This document shows, one piece after another, positions 25,272-34,323 of a stretch of 45,085 bases of DNA. This DNA is from Acidobacteriota bacterium. Its GTDB lineage: Bacteria; Acidobacteriota; Terriglobia; Bryobacterales; Bryobacteraceae. The DNA lies in NCBI GenBank assembly GCA_016213775.1, contig JACQZR010000136.1:1-45085 (forward strand), in the 5' to 3' direction. Within the stretch, counting starts at the first letter, position 1, and each line of letters begins with the position of its first letter. The notes below the pieces were generated by a model, which made no database searches, had not been told where the DNA came from, and worked only from the letters and a program-made list of their open reading frames with translations. A program made the translations under genes and the position numbers.

Positions 25272-27896
25272 TCAGACGCAATCCGCGCGGAGGGTTTCGG
25301 CGGGATCGGCGGAGGCGGCGCGGCGCGCAGGAGCGATTGCCGCGGCGAATCCGCAGAGTGCCAGCAGCACAGGGCCGACGAGCCAGGAGAATCCGTCTGA
25401 TACGCTCACGTTGAAGAGCAGACTCTCGATGGCACGTCCAGCAAAAAAGGACAGGGCGAATCCGGCGAGTGATCCCCAGAGCAGCAGCCGGGCGGCCTGC
25501 CGGAGCACCAGCGAGCGCACGTCGCGGGCACGGGCGCCGAGGGCGATGCGGATGCCGAACTCGCGCAGCCGCAGGCCGGTGGTGTAGGAGATAACGCCGT
25601 ACAGTCCGAGTCCGGCAAGCAGCAGAGATGCGGCGGCGAAAACCGCGACAACACCGGTGAGCAGATTGCGCGATTGGACGGTTTGCGTGAGCCAGTCCTG
25701 CATCGAGCGGACTTCGTAGACCGGCTGTTGGGGATTCTCAGCGCGGATTTGTTGGAGGACCGCCCCAGTGAATGCTTCCGGGCGGCCGGAGGTCTTCACG
25801 ACAAGCGCGGCCCGGTCCTGCGTGCGTTGCGACTCCGGCCAATAGGCTTGGGGCCGCACGTCCTTTTCGGGGCCGTCGTTGCGGATGTGGCCGGCGACGC
25901 CGACAATGGTGGTCCAGGGAAAGGTCAGCTTGGGGCCTGCATAAATGCGGAAGCGGCGGCCGATGGGGTCCTGTGAACCAAATGCGCGGCGGGCCAGTTC
26001 GCCGTCGATGATACCGACGAGCGGAGAATCGGGGCGGTCCTGCGCGAAGAAGAAACGGCCCCGCTCCAGCGGGATACCCATTGCTTCCATGTAGCCGGGG
26101 GTGGCGGAGCGCCAGTCAGTGTCGTACCTGTCCGTGATGCCTTCGAATTCGACACCGCCGGTTTGCGCGATGCCGCTCAATGGGAGGCGGTTGACCATTC
26201 CGGCGTCAACAACGCCGGGGATGGAGCGGATGCGGGCCAGCAGGCGGTCATAGTAATCGGATACCTGCCGGTCGGAGCGAAATTGGGCGCGCGTCACCGC
26301 GAGGTGCATGGTGAGCACTCGCTCGGTGGAGAATCCGGGATTCACCTGCCAGAGGCGCAGGAGGCTGCGCGCGAACAACGCGCCGTTAAACAGGAGCGCG
26401 AGCGTGACAGCGATCTGGGAGATCACAAGGACGTCGCGGGCGCGGAGGCCGGAAGTGACCGTGCGCGAGTTGGCGCGCAGCGCGGCGGCGAGGGTGGCGC
26501 CTGCACCGACACGCGACGGAAGCAAGGCCGCGAGCAACACCACCAGCGTACTGGCTGCGACGGCAAACGCGAGAACTGGCGGATGAAGTCCGATCTCGTC
26601 GAGGCGGGGAGTGTTGGGAGGGAGAGCCAGCACAAGGACCCGGAGAATCCAGAAGGCGAGCGCAACGCCGCCAATCGCGCCGATGGCGGCCAGCGGGAGC
26701 AGTTCGGCGAGAACCTGCCGGCGGAGGCGTGAGGCAGCAGCGCCGAGGGCCTGGCGCATCGCCATCTCGTGCGCCCGCGCACTGACGCGGGCGATGAGGA
26801 GCACTCCGAGGTTCAGGGCGCCGATGAGAAGGAGGCAACCGGCTGCGCCCAAAAGCGCATACAACATGCCGCTCACTTGATTGGCGTCGCTTTCGGCAAG
26901 CGGCTCGACTAGCGCGCGCAGATTGCCTCGGTTGGTGCGATAGGCGCCTGGCAGCTCCACGGCAAGTTGATCCATCACTGTGTTCACGTCGAGGCGTGCC
27001 TGCCGCAGGCTGGTGGCGGGCTTAAGGCGGGCCACGGCGCGGTACTGATAATTTCCGCCATCGGCAACCTCCTGGGGCGGGTAGAACAGTGGCGTCCAGA
27101 TTTCGAACTCGCGGCTGGGGTACCGGAAGTGTTCGGGCATCACCGCGAGCACCTGATAGGCTTCGCCGTTCAATTGGATTTTCGCGCCGATGATGGCGGG
27201 GTCAGAGGCGAAGCGGCGCTTCCAAAGGCGATGGCTCAGGAGCGCGACTTTGGCGTCGGCGCGGCGTTCTTCCTCGGTGAAGATGCGTCCCAGTAGCGGT
27301 TCGACGCCGAGGACAGCGGGGAGATTCGCAGTACAGCGCGCGCCCTGTAGACGCTCGGGAATGCCGCCGCCGGTAAGGTTGAAATTGGCGATGGGGCGAG
27401 TGAGGGCGATGTCGTCAAAGGAACGCGTGCGCTGTTTCCAGTGCTGCCAGAGGGCGGCGCTCACGGCGAAGCGCTCGTAGCCGGCGGTCGGGGCAGAGGG
27501 CCACAATGCCACCAGACTGCCGGGCGCGTGATAGGGCAGCGGACGCAGCAACACTCCGTGGACGGCGCTGAAAATGCCGGTGCTCATCCCGATGCCGAGG
27601 ATGAGGGTGGCGCTCACGACCGCAGTCCAGAGCGGGGTTTTTCTCAGAAGCCGCAGCCCGATGCGGACGTCCTCGAGGGTGCGTTCGAGTCCGCTCCAGC
27701 CCCAGGTTTCGCGTGTGTCTTCATGGACGGCGGCAATGCTTCCGAACAGGCGGCGGGCTTCACGTTCGGCCTCTAGCGGATCCTGGCCGGCGTCGATGCG
27801 GCGGCGCACTTCGATGGCGAGATGAGTACGCAGCTCTTCGGCGAGTTCGGCTTCGTTCTCGCCACGTTCGCGCCACGCGCGGAACCAATGGAACAT
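25272..27896 (-). CDS. MacB/FtsX-type ABC permease of the acidobacterial orphan (ADOP) family
   Basis: This large permease of 874 residues has no adjacent ATPase gene. An N-terminal helical prefix (about residues 1-75: MFHWFRAWRERGENEAELAEELRTH region) precedes the first membrane helix (TAVVSATLILGIGMSTGIF), a MacB-like periplasmic domain, three FtsX helices, a second periplasmic domain and a final set of three helices. This duplicated layout is the hallmark of acidobacterial duplicated orphan permeases. The substrate is unknown. Drug or peptide efflux is usually assumed. It starts 21 bases after the PadR gene, which probably controls it. Confidence 0.92.
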   Translation of the reverse strand: MFHWFRAWRERGENEAELAEELRTHLAIEVRRRIDAGQDPLEAEREARRLFGSIAAVHEDTRETWGWSGLERTLEDVRIGLRLLRKTPLWTAVVSATLILGIGMSTGIFSAVHGVLLRPLPYHAPGSLVALWPSAPTAGYERFAVSAALWQHWKQRTRSFDDIALTRPIANFNLTGGGIPERLQGARCTANLPAVLGVEPLLGRIFTEEERRADAKVALLSHRLWKRRFASDPAIIGAKIQLNGEAYQVLAVMPEHFRYPSREFEIWTPLFYPPQEVADGGNYQYRAVARLKPATSLRQARLDVNTVMDQLAVELPGAYRTNRGNLRALVEPLAESDANQVSGMLYALLGAAGCLLLIGALNLGVLLIARVSARAHEMAMRQALGAAASRLRRQVLAELLPLAAIGAIGGVALAFWILRVLVLALPPNTPRLDEIGLHPPVLAFAVAASTLVVLLAALLPSRVGAGATLAAALRANSRTVTSGLRARDVLVISQIAVTLALLFNGALFARSLLRLWQVNPGFSTERVLTMHLAVTRAQFRSDRQVSDYYDRLLARIRSIPGVVDAGMVNRLPLSGIAQTGGVEFEGITDRYDTDWRSATPGYMEAMGIPLERGRFFFAQDRPDSPLVGIIDGELARRAFGSQDPIGRRFRIYAGPKLTFPWTTIVGVAGHIRNDGPEKDVRPQAYWPESQRTQDRAALVVKTSGRPEAFTGAVLQQIRAENPQQPVYEVRSMQDWLTQTVQSRNLLTGVVAVFAAASLLLAGLGLYGVISYTTGLRLREFGIRIALGARARDVRSLVLRQAARLLLWGSLAGFALSFFAGRAIESLLFNVSVSDGFSWLVGPVLLALCGFAAAIAPARRAASADPAETLRADCV

Positions 27897-27917
27897 GCAG
27901 CCTCCTTGAGCGATTGA

Positions 27918-28256
27918 TCAGCTTTGCGAGCGCAGGACGCGGGTCATCGCTCGCACCAGCAACTTCCACTTTTCATCTTCGAGGGTCAGTTGGCCTTTTC
28001 CAGCCGCGGTGAGGCGGTAGAACCTGGCCATCTGGTTGTTATCACTGACGCCCCATTCCGATTCGATCCACCCTCTGCGACGCAGGCGGTGAAGGGCGGG
28101 GTAGAGACTGCCGTGCTCTACCTGGAGGATGTTATCGGATTTGGCGCGAATGGCTTGGCCGATGCCGTGGCCGTGTTGGGGTCCCCATTGGAGGGTCTGG
28201 AGAATAAGGAGGTCGAGGGTGCCTTTGAGGACATCGAGTTTTTCGGGCGGCGGCAT
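27918..28256 (-). CDS. PadR-family transcriptional regulator
   Basis: This is a 112-residue winged-helix repressor. The PadR pattern is clear: LKGTLDLLILQTLQWGPQHGHGIGQAI, then VEHGSLYPALHRLRRRGWIESEW with the wing, and FYRLTAAGKGQL. It has the short C-terminal helix used for dimerisation. Two palindromes of the form GTAGAA-N-TTCTAC lie within 45 bases upstream of its ATG and are likely autoregulatory operators. The downstream permease gene is 21 bases away on the same strand, the usual PadR-ADOP pairing in acidobacteria. The inducer is unknown. Confidence 0.95.
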   Translation of the reverse strand: MPPPEKLDVLKGTLDLLILQTLQWGPQHGHGIGQAIRAKSDNILQVEHGSLYPALHRLRRRGWIESEWGVSDNNQMARFYRLTAAGKGQLTLEDEKWKLLVRAMTRVLRSQS

Positions 28257-28298: not shown

Positions 28299-28468
28299 AC
28301 TAATGGGTGTAGGCGGGGGCGAAAACACGACACGTTGGCAGAGAACGTGCACAGCAGGGGTAGGGGTGATCGTTGCTGTGCTGAAAACAAAGCAGATCGG
28401 TGACGGATCACCTTTGGGAATGGCGCTGGTGTGGAATTTCCCCCACCCGCTGGCGCATGGGAGGTTTC

Positions 28469-29359
28469 GTGCTCGTTGATTTCCTGATTGCCGGCGGCAT
28501 CATGGCCGCGATGGGCATCCTGCTGGCGGCGGTGCTGGCGTTCGCGGACAAGAAGTTCTACGTATGGGAGGACCCACGGATCGATCAAGTGGAAGGGATG
28601 CTGCCGAGCGCGAACTGCGGCGCCTGCGGACAGCCGGGCTGCCGCGCATTTGCCGAGAAGGCGGTGAAGGGCGAGATCGCACCGGGGAAATGCACGGTGA
28701 GCTCACCGGACGGCGTCATTGCTATTGCCAGTTTTCTGGGGGTGAATGCGGGGGCCGAAGAGAAACGAGTGGCGCGGCTGGCCTGCGCGGGCGGCAGCAA
28801 CGTGGCCTGGAACAAGGCGCTTTATTCGGGCATGACCACCTGCCGGGCGGCGGCGCTGGTGTCGGGCGGGGGCAAGAGCTGCTCGTGGGGATGCCTCGGG
28901 CTGGGGGATTGCGCCAGAGCTTGCACTTTCGACGCGATCCACATGGACGCGCACGACTTACCAGTGGTGGATGTGGACAAATGCACTGCCTGCAACGACT
29001 GCGTGGTGGTGTGCCCGAAGGAGTTGTTCTCGCTGCATCCGATCAGCCGGCGGCTGTGGGTGTCGTGCAAGAACCTGTTGAATGGCGACGTGGCGGAAGC
29101 GGTGTGCGAAGTGGCCTGCACGGCTTGCGGGCGCTGCGCGGCCGATGCGCCCGGGTTGGTGCAGATCACGAACAATCTGGCGGTGGTGGACTATTCAAAG
29201 AACAGGCAGGCGACGCGGAAGCCGATTGAGCGCTGTCCGACGGGCGCGATTGTCTGGCTGAACGACAAGAGTGGGGCGTCCAAGGGCTTGGAAGCGAAGA
29301 ATATCACCCGGAAATCGCGGCTCCCGGTGGAGCAGGCCGATCTTCCGCTGGCACGGTAG
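28469..29359 (+). CDS. rnfB: Rnf complex iron-sulfur subunit B (RnfB)
   Basis: This is the ferredoxin-like electron entry subunit of a membrane Rnf complex. Residues 3-26 form the membrane anchor. A 4Fe-4S domain follows with Cys50-x2-Cys53-x4-Cys58-x16-Cys75. Next come two ferredoxin-type clusters (Cys138, 142, 148, 152 and Cys172, 175, 178, 182) and a further Cys set (213, 217, 220, 223, 256). The GTG at 28469 is preferred because GGGAGG lies just upstream. GTG at 28400 or ATG at 28457 are alternatives. It leads a B-E-A cluster, unlike the usual C-D-G-E-A-B order. Confidence 0.88.
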   Translation: MLVDFLIAGGIMAAMGILLAAVLAFADKKFYVWEDPRIDQVEGMLPSANCGACGQPGCRAFAEKAVKGEIAPGKCTVSSPDGVIAIASFLGVNAGAEEKRVARLACAGGSNVAWNKALYSGMTTCRAAALVSGGGKSCSWGCLGLGDCARACTFDAIHMDAHDLPVVDVDKCTACNDCVVVCPKELFSLHPISRRLWVSCKNLLNGDVAEAVCEVACTACGRCAADAPGLVQITNNLAVVDYSKNRQATRKPIERCPTGAIVWLNDKSGASKGLEAKNITRKSRLPVEQADLPLAR

Positions 29360-29375
29360 AAAAGGAGACTCCGAA

Positions 29376-30059
29376 ATGAGTCACGACCATGGGGCAATGA
29401 CCAAATCGCCTTCCGATAGCATGGAAGCTTTCTTTGGCGGGCTTTGGAAACAGAACCCCGTATTTGTACAGGTGCTCGGCCTCTGCCCGACGATGGCGAT
29501 CACCAACAGCGTGCGCAACGCGCTGGCGATGGGGATTGCAACCCTGTTCGTGCTGGTGTGCTCGAACGCCCTCATTGCGATGGTCCGCAAGATCATCCCC
29601 AAGCAGGTACGCATTGCGACGTTCATTCTGATCATCGCCACGTTTGTGACGATTGTGGATTACATGATCAAGGCCGTGAGTATCCCGGTGTATAAAGCGC
29701 TGGGGCCGTTTATCGCGCTGATCGTGGTGAACTGCATTATTCTCGGCCGGGCGGAGGCGTTCGCGAGCAAGAACGGAGTCTTTAAGTCGATTCTGGACGG
29801 GTTGGGGATGGGGATCGGATTCTTTATCGCGCTGCTGTGTTTGGGCGGCGTGCGCGAGGTGTTGGGCGCGGGCACATTCCTTGGGTTTCCGCTGTTCGGG
29901 TCCCATTATCAGCCGTGGGTGTTGTTCCTGCTGCCTTCCGGCGGGTTCTTTACGTTGGGTAGCTGGCTGCTGATCTTCCGGTGGTGGAAGGAACGCGGGA
30001 AGGGCAAATTGGCCCCCGGGGCTGACGAGGCGGACAAGGCCGTGGAGGTGCATGCATGA
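29376..30059 (+). CDS. rnfE: Rnf/NQR-type integral membrane subunit E (RnfE)
   Basis: This 227-residue, six-helix subunit is homologous to NqrD. Family marks are NPVFVQVLGLCPTMAITNSVRNALAMG and FIALIVVNCIILGRAEAFA. The conserved Cys37 and Cys120 correspond to half of the cysteine-ligated iron centre formed between the D/E-type and A-type subunits. The start at 29376 follows AAAGGAG. An N-terminal His-containing tail (MSHDHG) is extra. The stop overlaps rnfA as ATGA. Confidence 0.92.
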   Translation: MSHDHGAMTKSPSDSMEAFFGGLWKQNPVFVQVLGLCPTMAITNSVRNALAMGIATLFVLVCSNALIAMVRKIIPKQVRIATFILIIATFVTIVDYMIKAVSIPVYKALGPFIALIVVNCIILGRAEAFASKNGVFKSILDGLGMGIGFFIALLCLGGVREVLGAGTFLGFPLFGSHYQPWVLFLLPSGGFFTLGSWLLIFRWWKERGKGKLAPGADEADKAVEVHA

Positions 30060-30643
30060 ACGAGGTATCCCTCGGATATATTTTTATCGACTCGCTCCTG
30101 ATAAACAACTTTGTCTTGAGCGTGTTTTTGGGAATCTGCCCGTTCATCGGCGTGTCGGGTAAGATCACCACGGCGTGGCGCATGGGAGTGGCGGTGATCT
30201 TCGTGATCACGGTAAGTAGCGTGCTGGCCTTTGGGACCAATGTTCTACTGATGCACTTTCACGCGGAGTATTTGCGGATTATCAGCTTCATTGTCATTAT
30301 TGCTTCGACGGTACAGTTAGTGGAGATGTTTATCAAGAAGACCTCTCCGGCGCTGTTTCGCGCGTTGGGGATTTACCTGCCGCTCATCACGACGAATTGC
30401 GCGGTGTTGGGCGTGGCGTTGTTTCAGACGGCGCGGGAATATTCGCTGGTACAGAGCGTGGTGTTCGCGGTGGCATCGAGTGCCGGATTCGCGCTCGCCC
30501 TGTTCCTGATGGCGGTGATTCGCGAGCGGCTGGAGCTTTCCGATATTCCGGACATGGTGAAGGGGACAGCGCTGGTGTTGATGCTGGCCGGAACGCTGTC
30601 GCTGGCGTTCATGGGATTCGCCGGAATCGGCGGAGGATCGTAG
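30056..30643 (+). CDS. rnfA: Rnf/NQR-type integral membrane subunit A (RnfA)
   Basis: This 195-residue, six-helix subunit is homologous to NqrE and is inverted in topology relative to RnfE. It shows INNFVLSVFLGICPFIGVS and LPLITTNCAVLGVALF. Cys28 and Cys115 complete the four-Cys iron site with RnfE. It is translationally coupled to rnfE by a 4-base overlap and followed after 6 bases by a small Cys-rich membrane gene. Genes for the C, D and G subunits are not in this window. Confidence 0.93.
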   Translation: MNEVSLGYIFIDSLLINNFVLSVFLGICPFIGVSGKITTAWRMGVAVIFVITVSSVLAFGTNVLLMHFHAEYLRIISFIVIIASTVQLVEMFIKKTSPALFRALGIYLPLITTNCAVLGVALFQTAREYSLVQSVVFAVASSAGFALALFLMAVIRERLELSDIPDMVKGTALVLMLAGTLSLAFMGFAGIGGGS

Positions 30644-30873: not shown

Positions 30874-32307
30874 CTATTGTACTTTGGCGTCGAAGAAAGC
30901 CGTCTGCACCTCACCGGCGCGCTTGATCTGAACAAAGATGCGGTAGTCGCCGGGTGAGGGGAAGCCGTAGGGGAAACTCACTTCGGGCGGGAGTTTCAAT
31001 TGGCTCATGTCGTGGCCGGCATGGGGATCGGCCTGGCTCTGTGCGATGCTGAGGGCGGCCATCGGTACCGAACCCGTCGGATGCACGTGGGCGAAGACCG
31101 AACGGTCCCGTTTTACGAAGGCGGCGTGGCCCTGCATCCCCATGTAGAGTTCCATATCTCCGGCGGGTTTGCCATCGGCGGTCTCGACGCGGAAATGGAA
31201 GGGTTGTGGACGCCTGGCAGTGAACGGCGCGGCGTCGCGAACCCACACCATGCGCGCACCATCGGGAAGCGCGGCAGTAGCGGCCGCCACGTCGCCATGG
31301 CTGAGCGGCGTTCCAGTGGCTGCGGCATCGTCGCCGGTAACTGGTTTGCCGGCGATTTCCGGTAGGTCAATGTCGGTAGTGAGCGTCTCGGGGAGCCCGC
31401 TTTCGTGCACGACATCGCCGTAGAGCCCGTATTTGCCCGCGGGCATCGGCGGCAGTTGATGAGTGAAGATGCCGGACCCGGTCATCTCGGGATGGAGGTG
31501 CCAGACGCGTTCCATTTCCGGAAGACGAATGACATAGAGGTGCATGAGGTGGCCGTGATCGGGGACAAAATCATCAATGGCGCGGGGCAGCCAACCCGGG
31601 TCCTTCAGTTGAAGGCGCAGGGTACCAGTTGAGGCCAACTCGGCTTTCATTTGAAGCGGCTTGTAGATGATACGCGAGTAATTGTTCTCTTCCGAGGTCC
31701 ACCACTTGTTGCCGAAGTGGAGTATCGCCGCGAGCAGCCCGGCGGTGACGGACATGAAGACCCAGGCCTTATTGCGGCGGGAAGCGGCCGGTTGCACGCC
31801 AGGGTCCAGATCGGCTTCACGCGCCGCCGCTCCGGCGATGCTGATGCCGCCGATGATCAGGATGAGCGCGAGCACGCCGAGGACGGAGGCGAGGCCGGTG
31901 GTCATTTTCTCGGTCTGGCTGGCGAGGGCGGGCACGGGCACGTCGAGCTGGCCGGAGCCTTGCGCTCCTTCCACAGTGACGCGGACTTCCCATGAGCCGC
32001 TGGTCATCATCCACAGCCCGCCGGTGAAGAACTGAGGATCGTCCTTGGATGGGGTGGCGATGTCGGGCGTGGGGGCGAACTTCGCGCCCGGGCCCTTGAT
32101 GGGCGTGGGAACGATGCGCACCTCCTTGATGCCGGTGGAGCGGACACGAATGTCCACTTCCGCGATGCCGGGGATCACCTGCGGCGGACGGATGGTGACA
32201 AACAGCGGGTATGGCCCGGCCCTGCCTTCGAGGAAGATATCAGGGCTGCCGATGTGCGCCGAAGCAACCAGAGCACACGTCAGCGTCAATAGCAGACGCT
32301 TGTACAT
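30874..32307 (-). CDS. Exported His-rich membrane protein with two HxHP domains (PmoB-like layout)
   Basis: The 477-residue protein has a signal peptide ending VASA (residue 17), so cleavage would leave His18 as the N-terminus (HIGSPD). Residues 18-130 form a beta-rich domain. Two membrane helices follow at about 137-161 and 181-199. Two related C-terminal beta domains come next. The first has HGHLMH (251-256), HLHP (270-273) and a late His301. The second has GHAAF (His394) and HVHP (407-410). Repeated His pairs suggest bound metal, most likely copper. The start is one base after the stop of the partner membrane gene. I know no assigned function. It converges on the Rnf operon with only 11 bases between. 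Confidence 0.75.
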   Translation of the reverse strand: MYKRLLLTLTCALVASAHIGSPDIFLEGRAGPYPLFVTIRPPQVIPGIAEVDIRVRSTGIKEVRIVPTPIKGPGAKFAPTPDIATPSKDDPQFFTGGLWMMTSGSWEVRVTVEGAQGSGQLDVPVPALASQTEKMTTGLASVLGVLALILIIGGISIAGAAAREADLDPGVQPAASRRNKAWVFMSVTAGLLAAILHFGNKWWTSEENNYSRIIYKPLQMKAELASTGTLRLQLKDPGWLPRAIDDFVPDHGHLMHLYVIRLPEMERVWHLHPEMTGSGIFTHQLPPMPAGKYGLYGDVVHESGLPETLTTDIDLPEIAGKPVTGDDAAATGTPLSHGDVAAATAALPDGARMVWVRDAAPFTARRPQPFHFRVETADGKPAGDMELYMGMQGHAAFVKRDRSVFAHVHPTGSVPMAALSIAQSQADPHAGHDMSQLKLPPEVSFPYGFPSPGDYRIFVQIKRAGEVQTAFFDAKVQ

Positions 32308-32308
32308 A

Positions 32309-33478
32309 TTATCGGCGGACCTTGCGCATCCAATCGCCCCACCCCAAACCCACGCGCATCGAAATCATCGAGAAAACGAAGGCGAGCAGGATGCCTTTCG
32401 CGAAATCCGGTTCCACGGGTAAGAAGCGGTACTGGAATAACGCGGAATTGGGATGCGTGTAATACCCGAAATACTTTGCCCCAAAGAAGGCGTTACGTGC
32501 CGCGGGGGATTGCAGAAAATCGGCAAAAGGCCACTGGACTGCCAGGAAAAGTCCCATGAAGACGATGCCGGAAACGGCGGCGAGGAGCCATTTGTTCCAG
32601 GATGCAGTGCGCTTCCACAGTAAGTCTAGCGCGACAGCCGGCACAATGAATAACAGGGGCCACTCCGGCGGGACAAAGTGCGTCACGGGGAAATAGACCG
32701 GGCCGAGTTTGGGTTCGGCGGGGAACAGCGGCAGGATCCACACGCAGCCGATGAGAAACACGGAGTAAATGGCGGCGGCAATGGTGGACGCCCAGCGGAG
32801 GCCGGATGCGCGGGCGAGTCCGGCGAGGGCGAATGGGACAGCCACGCCAATCACCTTGTAGAAACCGGCGGTGTGCATCATCGGTCGAATGGTGTACTCC
32901 ATGAGGAAGATCATCAGGAGGACCACGATCATGGCGCCGATGTATAAGAAGATGGCGTTGAGCCTCCCACGCTCGGCTCCCGAGGCGCGGTTCATCTGCC
33001 CGAGGGTGAGGACGAGCGCGCCCATCATCACCATAAAGGTGCCGAAGATGAGAAGCACATGCGGCGGGCTGACAATTTTGACATCAAGGCCGTAAGCGCT
33101 ATGCCACCAGTCATCAAAAGGCGCGGAAGTGAGCATCGCCACGCCGCCCCAGGAAGCGAGGAATGCGCCAAGCGGAGCGCGGAAACCCCACATCCGGACC
33201 ACGGCTTGATCCTGAACGAAGCCAAAGCTGCGCGAGAGGATGAGATAGGCGCAACTGATACCGGCCAGAATGCCGCAGAGGTAGATGGCAATGTGGGCGG
33301 GGGTCCAGAAGGTGTCGCGTCCGATGGAGCGGTGCCACGAAATGTCCCAGTGAGCGCCGACCATGGCGGAAGTGACGGAGAAAACAGCGCACCAGAGATA
33401 CCAAGGGATGGCGGACGAACGGGTGGTAGCCCGCTCGCCAGCCGAAGCCTGCGCCGGAAATGGTATGGTGTTGGCCAT
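32309..33478 (-). CDS. Polytopic membrane protein with D-x3-H-x12-H motif (about ten helices)
   Basis: The 389-residue protein is almost entirely hydrophobic helices. At the end of helix 1 and start of helix 2 are Asp45, His49 and His62 (HWDISWHRS ... WTPAHIAIY). Helices 3 and 4 carry a similar arrangement, Asp122/123, His126 and His140 (FDDWWHSAYG ... VSPPHVLL), so the first four helices look like an internal duplication. The spacing Asp, +4 His, +17 His is the one reported for the PmoC copper site. The gene is separated from its exported partner by one base, so they surely work together. No family name is assigned. A heme/copper enzyme or a metal transporter are other possibilities. Confidence 0.75.
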   Translation of the reverse strand: MANTIPFPAQASAGERATTRSSAIPWYLWCAVFSVTSAMVGAHWDISWHRSIGRDTFWTPAHIAIYLCGILAGISCAYLILSRSFGFVQDQAVVRMWGFRAPLGAFLASWGGVAMLTSAPFDDWWHSAYGLDVKIVSPPHVLLIFGTFMVMMGALVLTLGQMNRASGAERGRLNAIFLYIGAMIVVLLMIFLMEYTIRPMMHTAGFYKVIGVAVPFALAGLARASGLRWASTIAAAIYSVFLIGCVWILPLFPAEPKLGPVYFPVTHFVPPEWPLLFIVPAVALDLLWKRTASWNKWLLAAVSGIVFMGLFLAVQWPFADFLQSPAARNAFFGAKYFGYYTHPNSALFQYRFLPVEPDFAKGILLAFVFSMISMRVGLGWGDWMRKVRR

Positions 33479-33550: not shown

Positions 33551-33961
33551 TCAGATGACGTCGATACCAGGGAAAACGGATTTGGCTTTGTCGGCGAACT
33601 TGCGGTCGGCGGTGGCGAGGCGGGAGGAATTGCGTTGGGCCAAAGCCAGGTAGAGACAGTCCTGGATGGGGTGGTTGAGTTGGAGCGAGAAGTTCGCGGC
33701 GTGGCGGACATCTTCCAGTGTGGTTTGGACTTGGATGACACCCTCCTTGAGCGCGTCCACCCACATACCCAGGGCTTCTTTGGCATCATCCAGTTCGATC
33801 TCGCCCAAGCGAAAGCGTTTGGTGATGGCTCCAGCGACTTCGGTGCGGATAAGGTCGGGAGCAACCAGGATCTCGGAGCCTTTGGCAAGGGCGAGAGCCT
33901 GGTCAGAGTTTGCCTCGGGGATTAGCCATTTGACGGCCACCGAGGCATCAATGATGATCAA
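33551..33961 (-). CDS. PIN-domain ribonuclease, VapC-like toxin
   Basis: The protein is a 136-residue PIN domain. Acidic catalytic residues are visible at MIIIDASVAVKW (Asp5), PDLIRTEVAGA (Glu), HPIQDCLYLALA (Asp) and LATADRKF (Asp). The start is TTG at 33961. It follows a ribbon-helix-helix antitoxin gene by 17 bases. VapC toxins cleave tRNA or rRNA in the cytoplasm. The RNA target here cannot be read from sequence. Confidence 0.87.
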   Translation of the reverse strand: MIIIDASVAVKWLIPEANSDQALALAKGSEILVAPDLIRTEVAGAITKRFRLGEIELDDAKEALGMWVDALKEGVIQVQTTLEDVRHAANFSLQLNHPIQDCLYLALAQRNSSRLATADRKFADKAKSVFPGIDVI

Positions 33962-33978
33962 GAAGTGGACCTCTTGGG

Positions 33979-34260
33979 TTAGGTTTGGTCCGCGGCAGGA
34001 TCAACGGGGCGGGTGGGATCGGCGTCCCGATCCGCCCGGATCAAATCTGTACTATCCGAAAGCGTGCCGTAGCGCGCCTTCAGTTTGGCGTTGAATACCG
34101 CAGCCTTGGCTGCAAAATCCAACTTGGGTTTCAAAGCCGATTGTATCACAACACGCCTCAATTCTTCTTCCAGGCTCACACCCGATTCCACGGCCCGGGT
34201 GCGGTGCGCATCCAGGACGTCGTTGGGGAGCCGTCGTATTTTTACTGCCTCAGGTGGCAT
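33979..34260 (-). CDS. Ribbon-helix-helix antitoxin, FitA/VapB-like
   Basis: The 93-residue protein has an N-terminal ribbon-helix-helix (AVKIRRLPNDVLDAHRTRAVESGVSLEEELRRVV) that should bind its own promoter. The acidic C-terminus probably wraps the toxin. The start at 34260 (MPPEAVK) is preferred to ATG at 34287. The toxin gene follows after 17 bases. Confidence 0.8.
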   Translation of the reverse strand: MPPEAVKIRRLPNDVLDAHRTRAVESGVSLEEELRRVVIQSALKPKLDFAAKAAVFNAKLKARYGTLSDSTDLIRADRDADPTRPVDPAADQT

Positions 34261-34323
34261 GCTTAGAGTATCGGTCAGAATCGGCAAAACTTCAATATGG
34301 GGTCATGAGGGCACTGGAAATTC

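Follow-up and report, generated by a model that had tools for sequence, protein, structure and literature searches.

A predicted exported β protein and a PmoC-like membrane partner encoded side by side in Acidobacteriota

The window, a stretch of 45,085 nucleotides from contig JACQZR010000136.1 of an Acidobacteriota draft genome (10.96 Mb, 98.5% complete), carries a pair of genes on its minus strand, p2 first and p1 second. An open reading frame (ORF) check confirmed both frames and the gap of one base that an earlier reading of the letters (the sequence-only reading) had noted between them. The product of p2 is a membrane protein with two Asp-His-His sites, and the evidence supports a distant homology to PmoC/AmoC, subunit C of the particulate methane and ammonia monooxygenases (pMMO and AMO). 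The product of p1 is predicted to be exported and anchored in the membrane. The features are as follows.

32309–33478, minus strand: p2 gene, 389 amino acids, ten-helix membrane protein with a PmoC-like core
33194–33409, minus strand: p2 repeat 1, residues 24–95, with D45/H49/R54/D55/H62, a CuC-type site
32975–33181, minus strand: p2 repeat 2, residues 100–168, with D122/H126/G130/D132/H140, a CuD-type site with Asp for the Asn of PmoC
32309–32974, minus strand: p2 C-terminal part, residues 169–389, helices 5–10, no established homologue
30874–32307, minus strand: p1 gene, 477 amino acids, predicted exported, membrane-anchored β protein
32257–32307, minus strand: p1 predicted signal peptide, residues 1–17, AxA-H site
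31918–32256, minus strand: p1 N-terminal β domain, residues 18–130, invariant His18; weak YtkA-like match in some divergent members
31675–31899, minus strand: p1 two transmembrane helices, residues 137–211, from the AlphaFold2 model
30877–31662, minus strand: p1 C-terminal double β domain, residues 216–477, conserved His set

The gene pair and its products

Conservation was assessed in sets made non-redundant at 90% identity, 90 p2 and 74 p1 rows with the window proteins included, from which short, truncated or split copies were removed before counting. The sequence-only reading had singled out D45, H49 and H62 of p2 and overlooked D122/H126/H140, which make up another such site. Both sites are invariant (90/90), together with W44, W48, G53, R54, D55, G130 and D132. 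The C-terminal part is also conserved at E194 (96%), H202 (99%), D285 and R389 (both 100%). The AlphaFold2 model of p2 (mean predicted local distance difference test score, pLDDT, 93.7) has ten helices, in keeping with the approximate number expected beforehand. D45 and H49 close helix 1 and H62 opens helix 2, D122 and H126 close helix 3 and H140 opens helix 4, so both sites would lie on the same side of the membrane. The short positive N-terminus and the C-terminus weakly suggest that this is the outer side.

The two p2 sites look like an internal duplication. In a joint set with the actinobacterial relatives described below, residues 24–95 align with residues 100–168 at E=6e-9, ligand facing ligand at all three positions; the alignment scores 44.8, the best block shuffle 41.0, and none of 200 shuffles reaches the real score.

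The order proposed for p1 by the sequence-only reading, a signal peptide, a β domain, two membrane helices and C-terminal β domains, is borne out by its AlphaFold2 model (mean pLDDT 93.7), which comprises a signal helix, a β domain with strands in residues 24–127, helices 137–164 and 175–211, and β domains extending to residue 476. An AxA-H site falls at residues 17/18; His18 is present in 74/74 rows and a plausible cleavage site (A/V/S/T/G/I/L at −3, A/G at −1) in 72/74. The protein is predicted to be exported with His18 as the mature N-terminus. In the C-terminal domains H251, H256, H270, H272 and H394 are found in 74/74 rows, H301 in 73/74, and H407 and H409 in 73/74 (one gap). The HxHP pairs, to which attention had also been drawn, are kept in 74/74 (H270/H272/P273) and 73/74 (H407/H409/P410, one gap). 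The sequence-only reading had set variation in the Asp/His residues or the post-signal His as a test that could refute it, and in these alignments they prove invariant or almost so. His18 is the sole histidine of the window's p1 N-terminal domain and all HxH pairs lie in the C-terminal domains. Of the histidine brace suggested earlier the N-terminal His stands, whilst its HxH partner is missing from the N-terminal domain, and a full brace within that domain is rejected. Any brace would be mono-histidine at best; the C-terminal HxH pairs could approach His18.

Family matches of p1 fall below curated cut-offs. The YtkA-like model (PF13115) matches 6/74 sequences at E≤1, the best score among the divergent members scanned being 22.7 bits against a cut-off of 25.9 (residues 32–111), and one divergent p1 matches CopC at E=0.14. 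Neither window protein matches CopC or CopD at E≤10, and neither family is among the matches listed (best 25 of 44 for p2, best 25 of 38 for p1). The p1 profile had no match below E=0.2 among PDB sequences; those at or above it were a surface protein, a ribosomal protein and a copper-resistance protein. The best 50 of 1615 Foldseek rows from the PDB are multi-domain β proteins, with no PmoB. Other proteins of the same genomes also have the C-terminal double domain; four of these, among ten proteins scanned, contain HMBD (two), YtkA (one) or YHYH with Cupredoxin_1 (one). In L027, and by eye also in L016 and L021–L025, a YHYH-type part is joined to a p1-type C-terminal double domain, some with a cupredoxin end; the family scan of such joined proteins covers L027.

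Searching bacterial and archaeal genomes for p2 gave 378 relatives, of which the best 80 were kept. The gene occurs in 52/201 genomes of a set made up of the window's own and those close to it, in 16/297 spread over the phylum (two through fragments alone) and in 42/150 of the phylum containing a Gemmatimonadaceae relative. Only one of 240 genomes of the phylum with a Verrucomicrobia relative has it, that of the relative itself, and no copy was found on viral contigs. The hosts of the pair are Acidobacteriota and Gemmatimonadota. A p1 search of 61 genomes gave a long match in 14 (the window's own included, and one split over two contigs), the same 14 that have p2. At 67 of the best 80 loci p1 adjoins p2, and 29/29 further loci (28 distinct) have both p2 motifs and an adjoining p1, with 3 to 63 bases between the matched ends. 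Unpaired p2 (10 of the 90 rows) cluster on a quick tree, requiring 3 changes against 9.6 in shuffles with 0/500 as low. Record prefixes match those of paired loci for at least seven of the 13 unpaired loci, which are thus second copies. In one relative (L036/L064) p1 is split into two ORFs, with p2 intact.

Probable kinship with PmoC and AmoC

The catalytic copper site of the methane and ammonia monooxygenases has long been disputed (PMC12576850). The same source gives the ligands in PmoC as Asp156, His160 and His173 for CuC and Asn227, His231 and His245 for CuD, with Arg165 nearby. In p2, D45/H49/H62 align with CuC and D122/H126/H140 with CuD, an invariant Asp replacing the Asn, and R54, nine residues past the first Asp, occupies the Arg165 position.

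Curated models register this likeness below threshold. The window p2 matches AmoC of Pfam at E=0.094 (12.5 bits, cut-off 26.7) and of NCBIfam at E=6.2e-4 (19.1 bits, cut-off 319). AmoC models are the commonest family matches at E≤1, all sub-threshold (NCBIfam 17/90 and 13/90, Pfam 19/90). When the Pfam model was run over the 61 genomes p2 ranked first within its own genome (E=0.012); no protein in those genomes passed the cut-off, and one better-ranked match (G022) is not p2.

Compared by hhalign with seven plasmid-encoded proteins annotated as PmoC or AmoC, the p2 profile aligned at E=2.9e-4 (probability 40%); a later, larger set of 98 p2 and 10 PmoC sequences gave E=9.9e-5 (58%). All six ligands are then in register: D45, H49, H62, D122, H126 and H140 face D129, H133, H146, N200, H204 and H218 of PmoC from a Methylocystis plasmid (L149). 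The real score of 40.8 was reached in 0/400 shuffles, the best of 200 column shuffles giving 27.8 and of 200 block shuffles 38.3. In the reciprocal direction, the seven plasmid records were searched with a p2 profile, which matched the annotated PmoC in 5/7 (E of 4.5e-7, 9.0e-6, 4.0e-5, 0.012 and 0.15). The Methylocystis plasmids L149 and L150 have pmoC without an adjoining listed pmoA or pmoB, in a gene table that is incomplete.

Of the best 50 of 163 Foldseek rows for p2, eight exceed a probability of 0.5, and each of these is a pMMO/AMO chain. Subunit A accounts for two (9cl6_B, 9cl1_Ca) and subunit C for the rest, 7s4m_C being assigned to its subunit by length alone. These model-based matches support a kinship with PmoC without proving it. 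Searching PDB sequences with the p2 profile gave a CD20 match at E≥0.2, and a fold search of BFVD found nothing notable (best E=0.12, probability 0.08).

Further relatives were found in actinobacteria. In the plasmid record of Mycolicibacterium chubuense NBB4 the p2 profile matched, in place of PmoC, WP_014805643.1, annotated as hypothetical and with no Pfam match at E≤1, which hhalign aligns with the p2 family at E=1.3e-13. Proteins of this type share the core and six ligands of p2 and differ in being single polypeptides. A tblastn search of plasmids located relatives in Streptomyces, Mycolicibacterium, Leifsonia, Rubrobacter and Nonomuraea, and a further plasmid search for such members gave no usable additions. 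Seven were aligned with 98 p2 sequences, leaving out one Streptomyces copy and the Rubrobacter copy, which is in pieces. In this joint set the six ligand columns, R54, D55, G130 and D132 are all 105/105; the distance from the second to the third ligand of site 1 is off by one or two residues in two actinobacterial members. Against PmoC, the actinobacterial set alone aligns at E=1.6e-4 (probability 51%) and the joint core at E=1.4e-5 (80%). The only PDB chains that the actinobacterial profile matches at E≤10 are three AMO subunits C (E of 0.0044, 0.017 and 0.021). On the Rubrobacter marinus plasmid (L278, 2892–4016) the core lies in two overlapping frames and is probably disrupted.

In five of the seven actinobacterial proteins (L273–L277) an AxA-HDPGQG motif comes after the core, and beyond it lies a segment that aligns with the N-terminal domain of p1 at E=8.3e-4 (0/200 shuffles as high). 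If this alignment holds, the natural fusion argues that core and p1-like domain act together, and the AxA-H pattern suggests that an internal signal-peptidase cut might free an N-terminal His.

A distant homology of p2 to PmoC/AmoC, with two PmoC-type sites, is supported by the profile alignment, the reciprocal search and the PDB matches of the actinobacterial relatives. The sequence-only reading had remarked on the D+4H+17H spacing of PmoC and had considered an 'unrelated or very distant' copper membrane protein. The spacing is now best ascribed to distant homology, with a second PmoC-type site in addition, and of the two descriptions 'unrelated' becomes improbable, given profile alignments with the ligands in register. 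With PmoC/AmoC (PF04896, TIGR03078, NF041641) p2 shares the CuC and CuD ligand spacings, a WH-x4-RD motif and P-x-H turns. It differs in the Asp at the CuD Asn, in a core near the N-terminus followed by six other helices, and in scores far below the cut-offs.

With PmoB/AmoB (PF04744), in the layout taken from PMC12576850, p1 shares the order of signal peptide, N-terminal His, β domain, two helices and C-terminal β part. It differs in an N-terminal domain without the CuB HxH, in a longer C-terminal β part and in the lack of convincing sequence homology. Whole and trimmed profiles of p1 compared with four PmoB proteins gave nothing convincing, the best match being C-part to C-part at E=0.003 over 23 columns. 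The PmoB-like character earlier proposed for p1 therefore survives as architecture; PmoB homology is rejected on this comparison, in agreement with the Foldseek rows. The absence of PmoA, already noted, extends to the draft genome, where PF02461 has no match at E≤10. PmoB has no credible match there, the sole row being a 54-residue frame elsewhere at E=1.05. Since neither subunit is found in the draft genome the pair is, by definition, not a copper membrane monooxygenase (CuMMO); it is likely a relative of one subunit. Viral sequences searched for PmoA and PmoB to enrich the profiles yielded none. The C-terminal half of p2 is co-linear with PmoA over 183 columns (E=0.013, 6/150 shuffles as high) and, with the two subunit A chains from Foldseek, this raises the possibility of a PmoA-like part within it.

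Copper handling or catalysis

Genes around the actinobacterial relatives were inspected over approximately 3 kb (5 kb for L273; L280 has no gene table). The neighbours of L275 include a cupredoxin, an HMA protein and a heavy-metal P-type ATPase, those of L276 a metal-sensitive repressor, a P-type ATPase and a YHS protein, and L279 has CopC adjoining together with oxidase subunit III. An annotated YHS protein lies near L274, a BlaI/MecI/CopY regulator and CcdA/TlpA near L273, and ResB and an L,D-transpeptidase near L277; L278 has no metal-related neighbour. In copper import of the YcnJ and CopC-CopD-YtkA kind, an exported copper-binding or YtkA-like domain works with a polytopic membrane part (PMC13344008). 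The p1–p2 pair shares the layout of exported domain and membrane partner, with weak YtkA matches in p1, and differs in the absence of CopC/CopD matches to the window proteins and in its PmoC-like p2.

What might such a pair do? From their alignment with PmoC we infer that the Asp-His-His motifs of p2 are copper sites. The reading we prefer, with confidence evenly balanced, is that p1 and p2 form a membrane complex for the capture or handling of copper. The p2 core would consist of two tandem two-helix units (D-x3-H ... x-D ... P-x-H), each with one Asp and two His. p1, once exported and anchored by its two helices, would expose its free N-terminal His at the tip of a small β domain, alongside which the His/Met-rich C-terminal domains would be displayed. 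It might thereby capture periplasmic copper and pass it to the paired sites of p2, which would act as a partner of the CopD/YcnJ type on a PmoC scaffold and not as a methane or ammonia oxidase. The complex could serve to take copper up, to store it or to supply it to copper enzymes. The sequence-only reading had offered a copper membrane enzyme or a copper handler; some actinobacterial neighbourhoods favour handling, and the enzyme is kept as an alternative.

Several observations tell against this reading or the homology on which it draws. Of the six actinobacterial loci that are annotated and have the core gene intact, just three lie near clear copper or heavy-metal genes, no copper gene is conserved beside the acidobacterial pair in 81 stretches, and 13/80 p2 loci are without an adjoining p1. 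The second-sphere position of PmoC is held by an invariant Arg, which would suit an enzyme too. The E-values against PmoC come from single comparisons and the hhalign probabilities are modest at 40, 58 and 80%, falling to 24% for the fusion segment and p1. With a trimmed p2 core 1/150 block shuffles equalled the real PmoC score, and single p2 members matched unrelated Pfam models as well or better (DUF6410, E=5.6e-5). In the reciprocal search one plasmid record had no match at all, the PmoC of the NBB4 record was missed, and two of the five matches are weak (E of 0.012 and 0.15). The top Foldseek E-value for p2 belongs to a cytochrome bd chain (E=0.08, probability 0.20), the pMMO/AMO rows ranging from 0.16 to 2.5, all above 0.1.

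The chief alternative, possible in our view if rather doubtful, is a copper oxygenase that dispenses with PmoA, activating O2 at the CuD-type site of p2 with p1 supplying electrons or copper and the additional p2 helices replacing PmoA. Both PmoC-type sites and the second-sphere Arg are indeed invariant, the active site of pMMO has been placed, putatively, at CuD (PMC12576850), and two of the eight Foldseek rows with probability above 0.5, all of them pMMO/AMO, are subunit A. However, the draft genome has neither PmoA nor PmoB, the p1 N-terminal domain has no CuB-type HxH, the match of the p2 C-terminal half to PmoA is insignificant, and copper-handling genes lie beside some relatives. Copper handling is favoured over the oxygenase because of those neighbourhoods, the company that the p1 double domain keeps with metal-binding domains, and the absence of PmoA and PmoB.

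Asp-His-His triads are known to accept several metals, and the same scaffold might serve a non-copper metal such as Zn, Fe or Ni, as is perhaps the case for mono-histidine-brace domains on HupE/UreJ permeases; N-terminal-His β domains attached to permeases bound Cu best and Ni also (PMC12537917). The homology to PmoC, the copper genes near some relatives and the conserved His and Met of p1 make this improbable. Least probable, and hard to credit, is that the likeness to PmoC arose by convergence between unrelated membrane proteins with two D-x3-H turns. Overall identity is low, the window protein scores under the curated cut-offs and profile probabilities are 40–80%, as convergence would allow. 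It would have to account for the agreement in WH-x4-RD ... TP-x-H with a second site in register, for two families that align separately with PmoC, for the reciprocal search and for the ranking among PDB sequences.

The pair bears on the origin of the methane and ammonia monooxygenases. As the p2 repeats align with their ligands in register, this pair from a soil-type acidobacterium suggests that CuC and CuD of PmoC are copies of one unit. Archaeal CuMMOs are reported to keep the C-site and to lack the D-site (PMC9038741). A fairly widespread relative with both PmoC sites, and without PmoA or a recognisable PmoB, would separate the function of the sites from that of the full enzyme and hints that the CuMMO copper core may belong to a wider family that handles copper rather than oxidizing methane. 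We would propose, tentatively and short of even confidence, that PmoC is a branch of an older, tandem-duplicated Asp-His-His copper superfamily with N-terminal-His partners and that CuMMOs derived from a copper-handling pair. In its boldest form this would make p1–p2 a PmoA-independent oxygenase, with p2 resembling subunits C and A and p1 subunit B. Among the literature matches listed, no title or opening of an abstract describes such a family.

Genomic surroundings

No conserved neighbour was found around the acidobacterial pair, the commonest next family occurring in 12/81 stretches by a count with a rough gene caller, in which even the families of the pair itself were recovered in just 63 and 56 stretches. 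In the window the pair is flanked by an Rnf-type cluster and a FitA/PIN pair, with electron transfer flavoprotein (ETF) genes beyond. The Rnf-type genes (28400–30643) are convergent with the pair and code for an Fe-S protein with an RnfB-like FeS domain and two Rnf-Nqr membrane subunits; the annotation covers these three genes. Just upstream of p2 (33551–34287) a PIN-domain protein and a FitA-like antitoxin are encoded, likely a toxin–antitoxin pair of the VapBC/FitAB type. At 25272–28256 a PadR regulator gene adjoins a MacB/FtsX permease gene.

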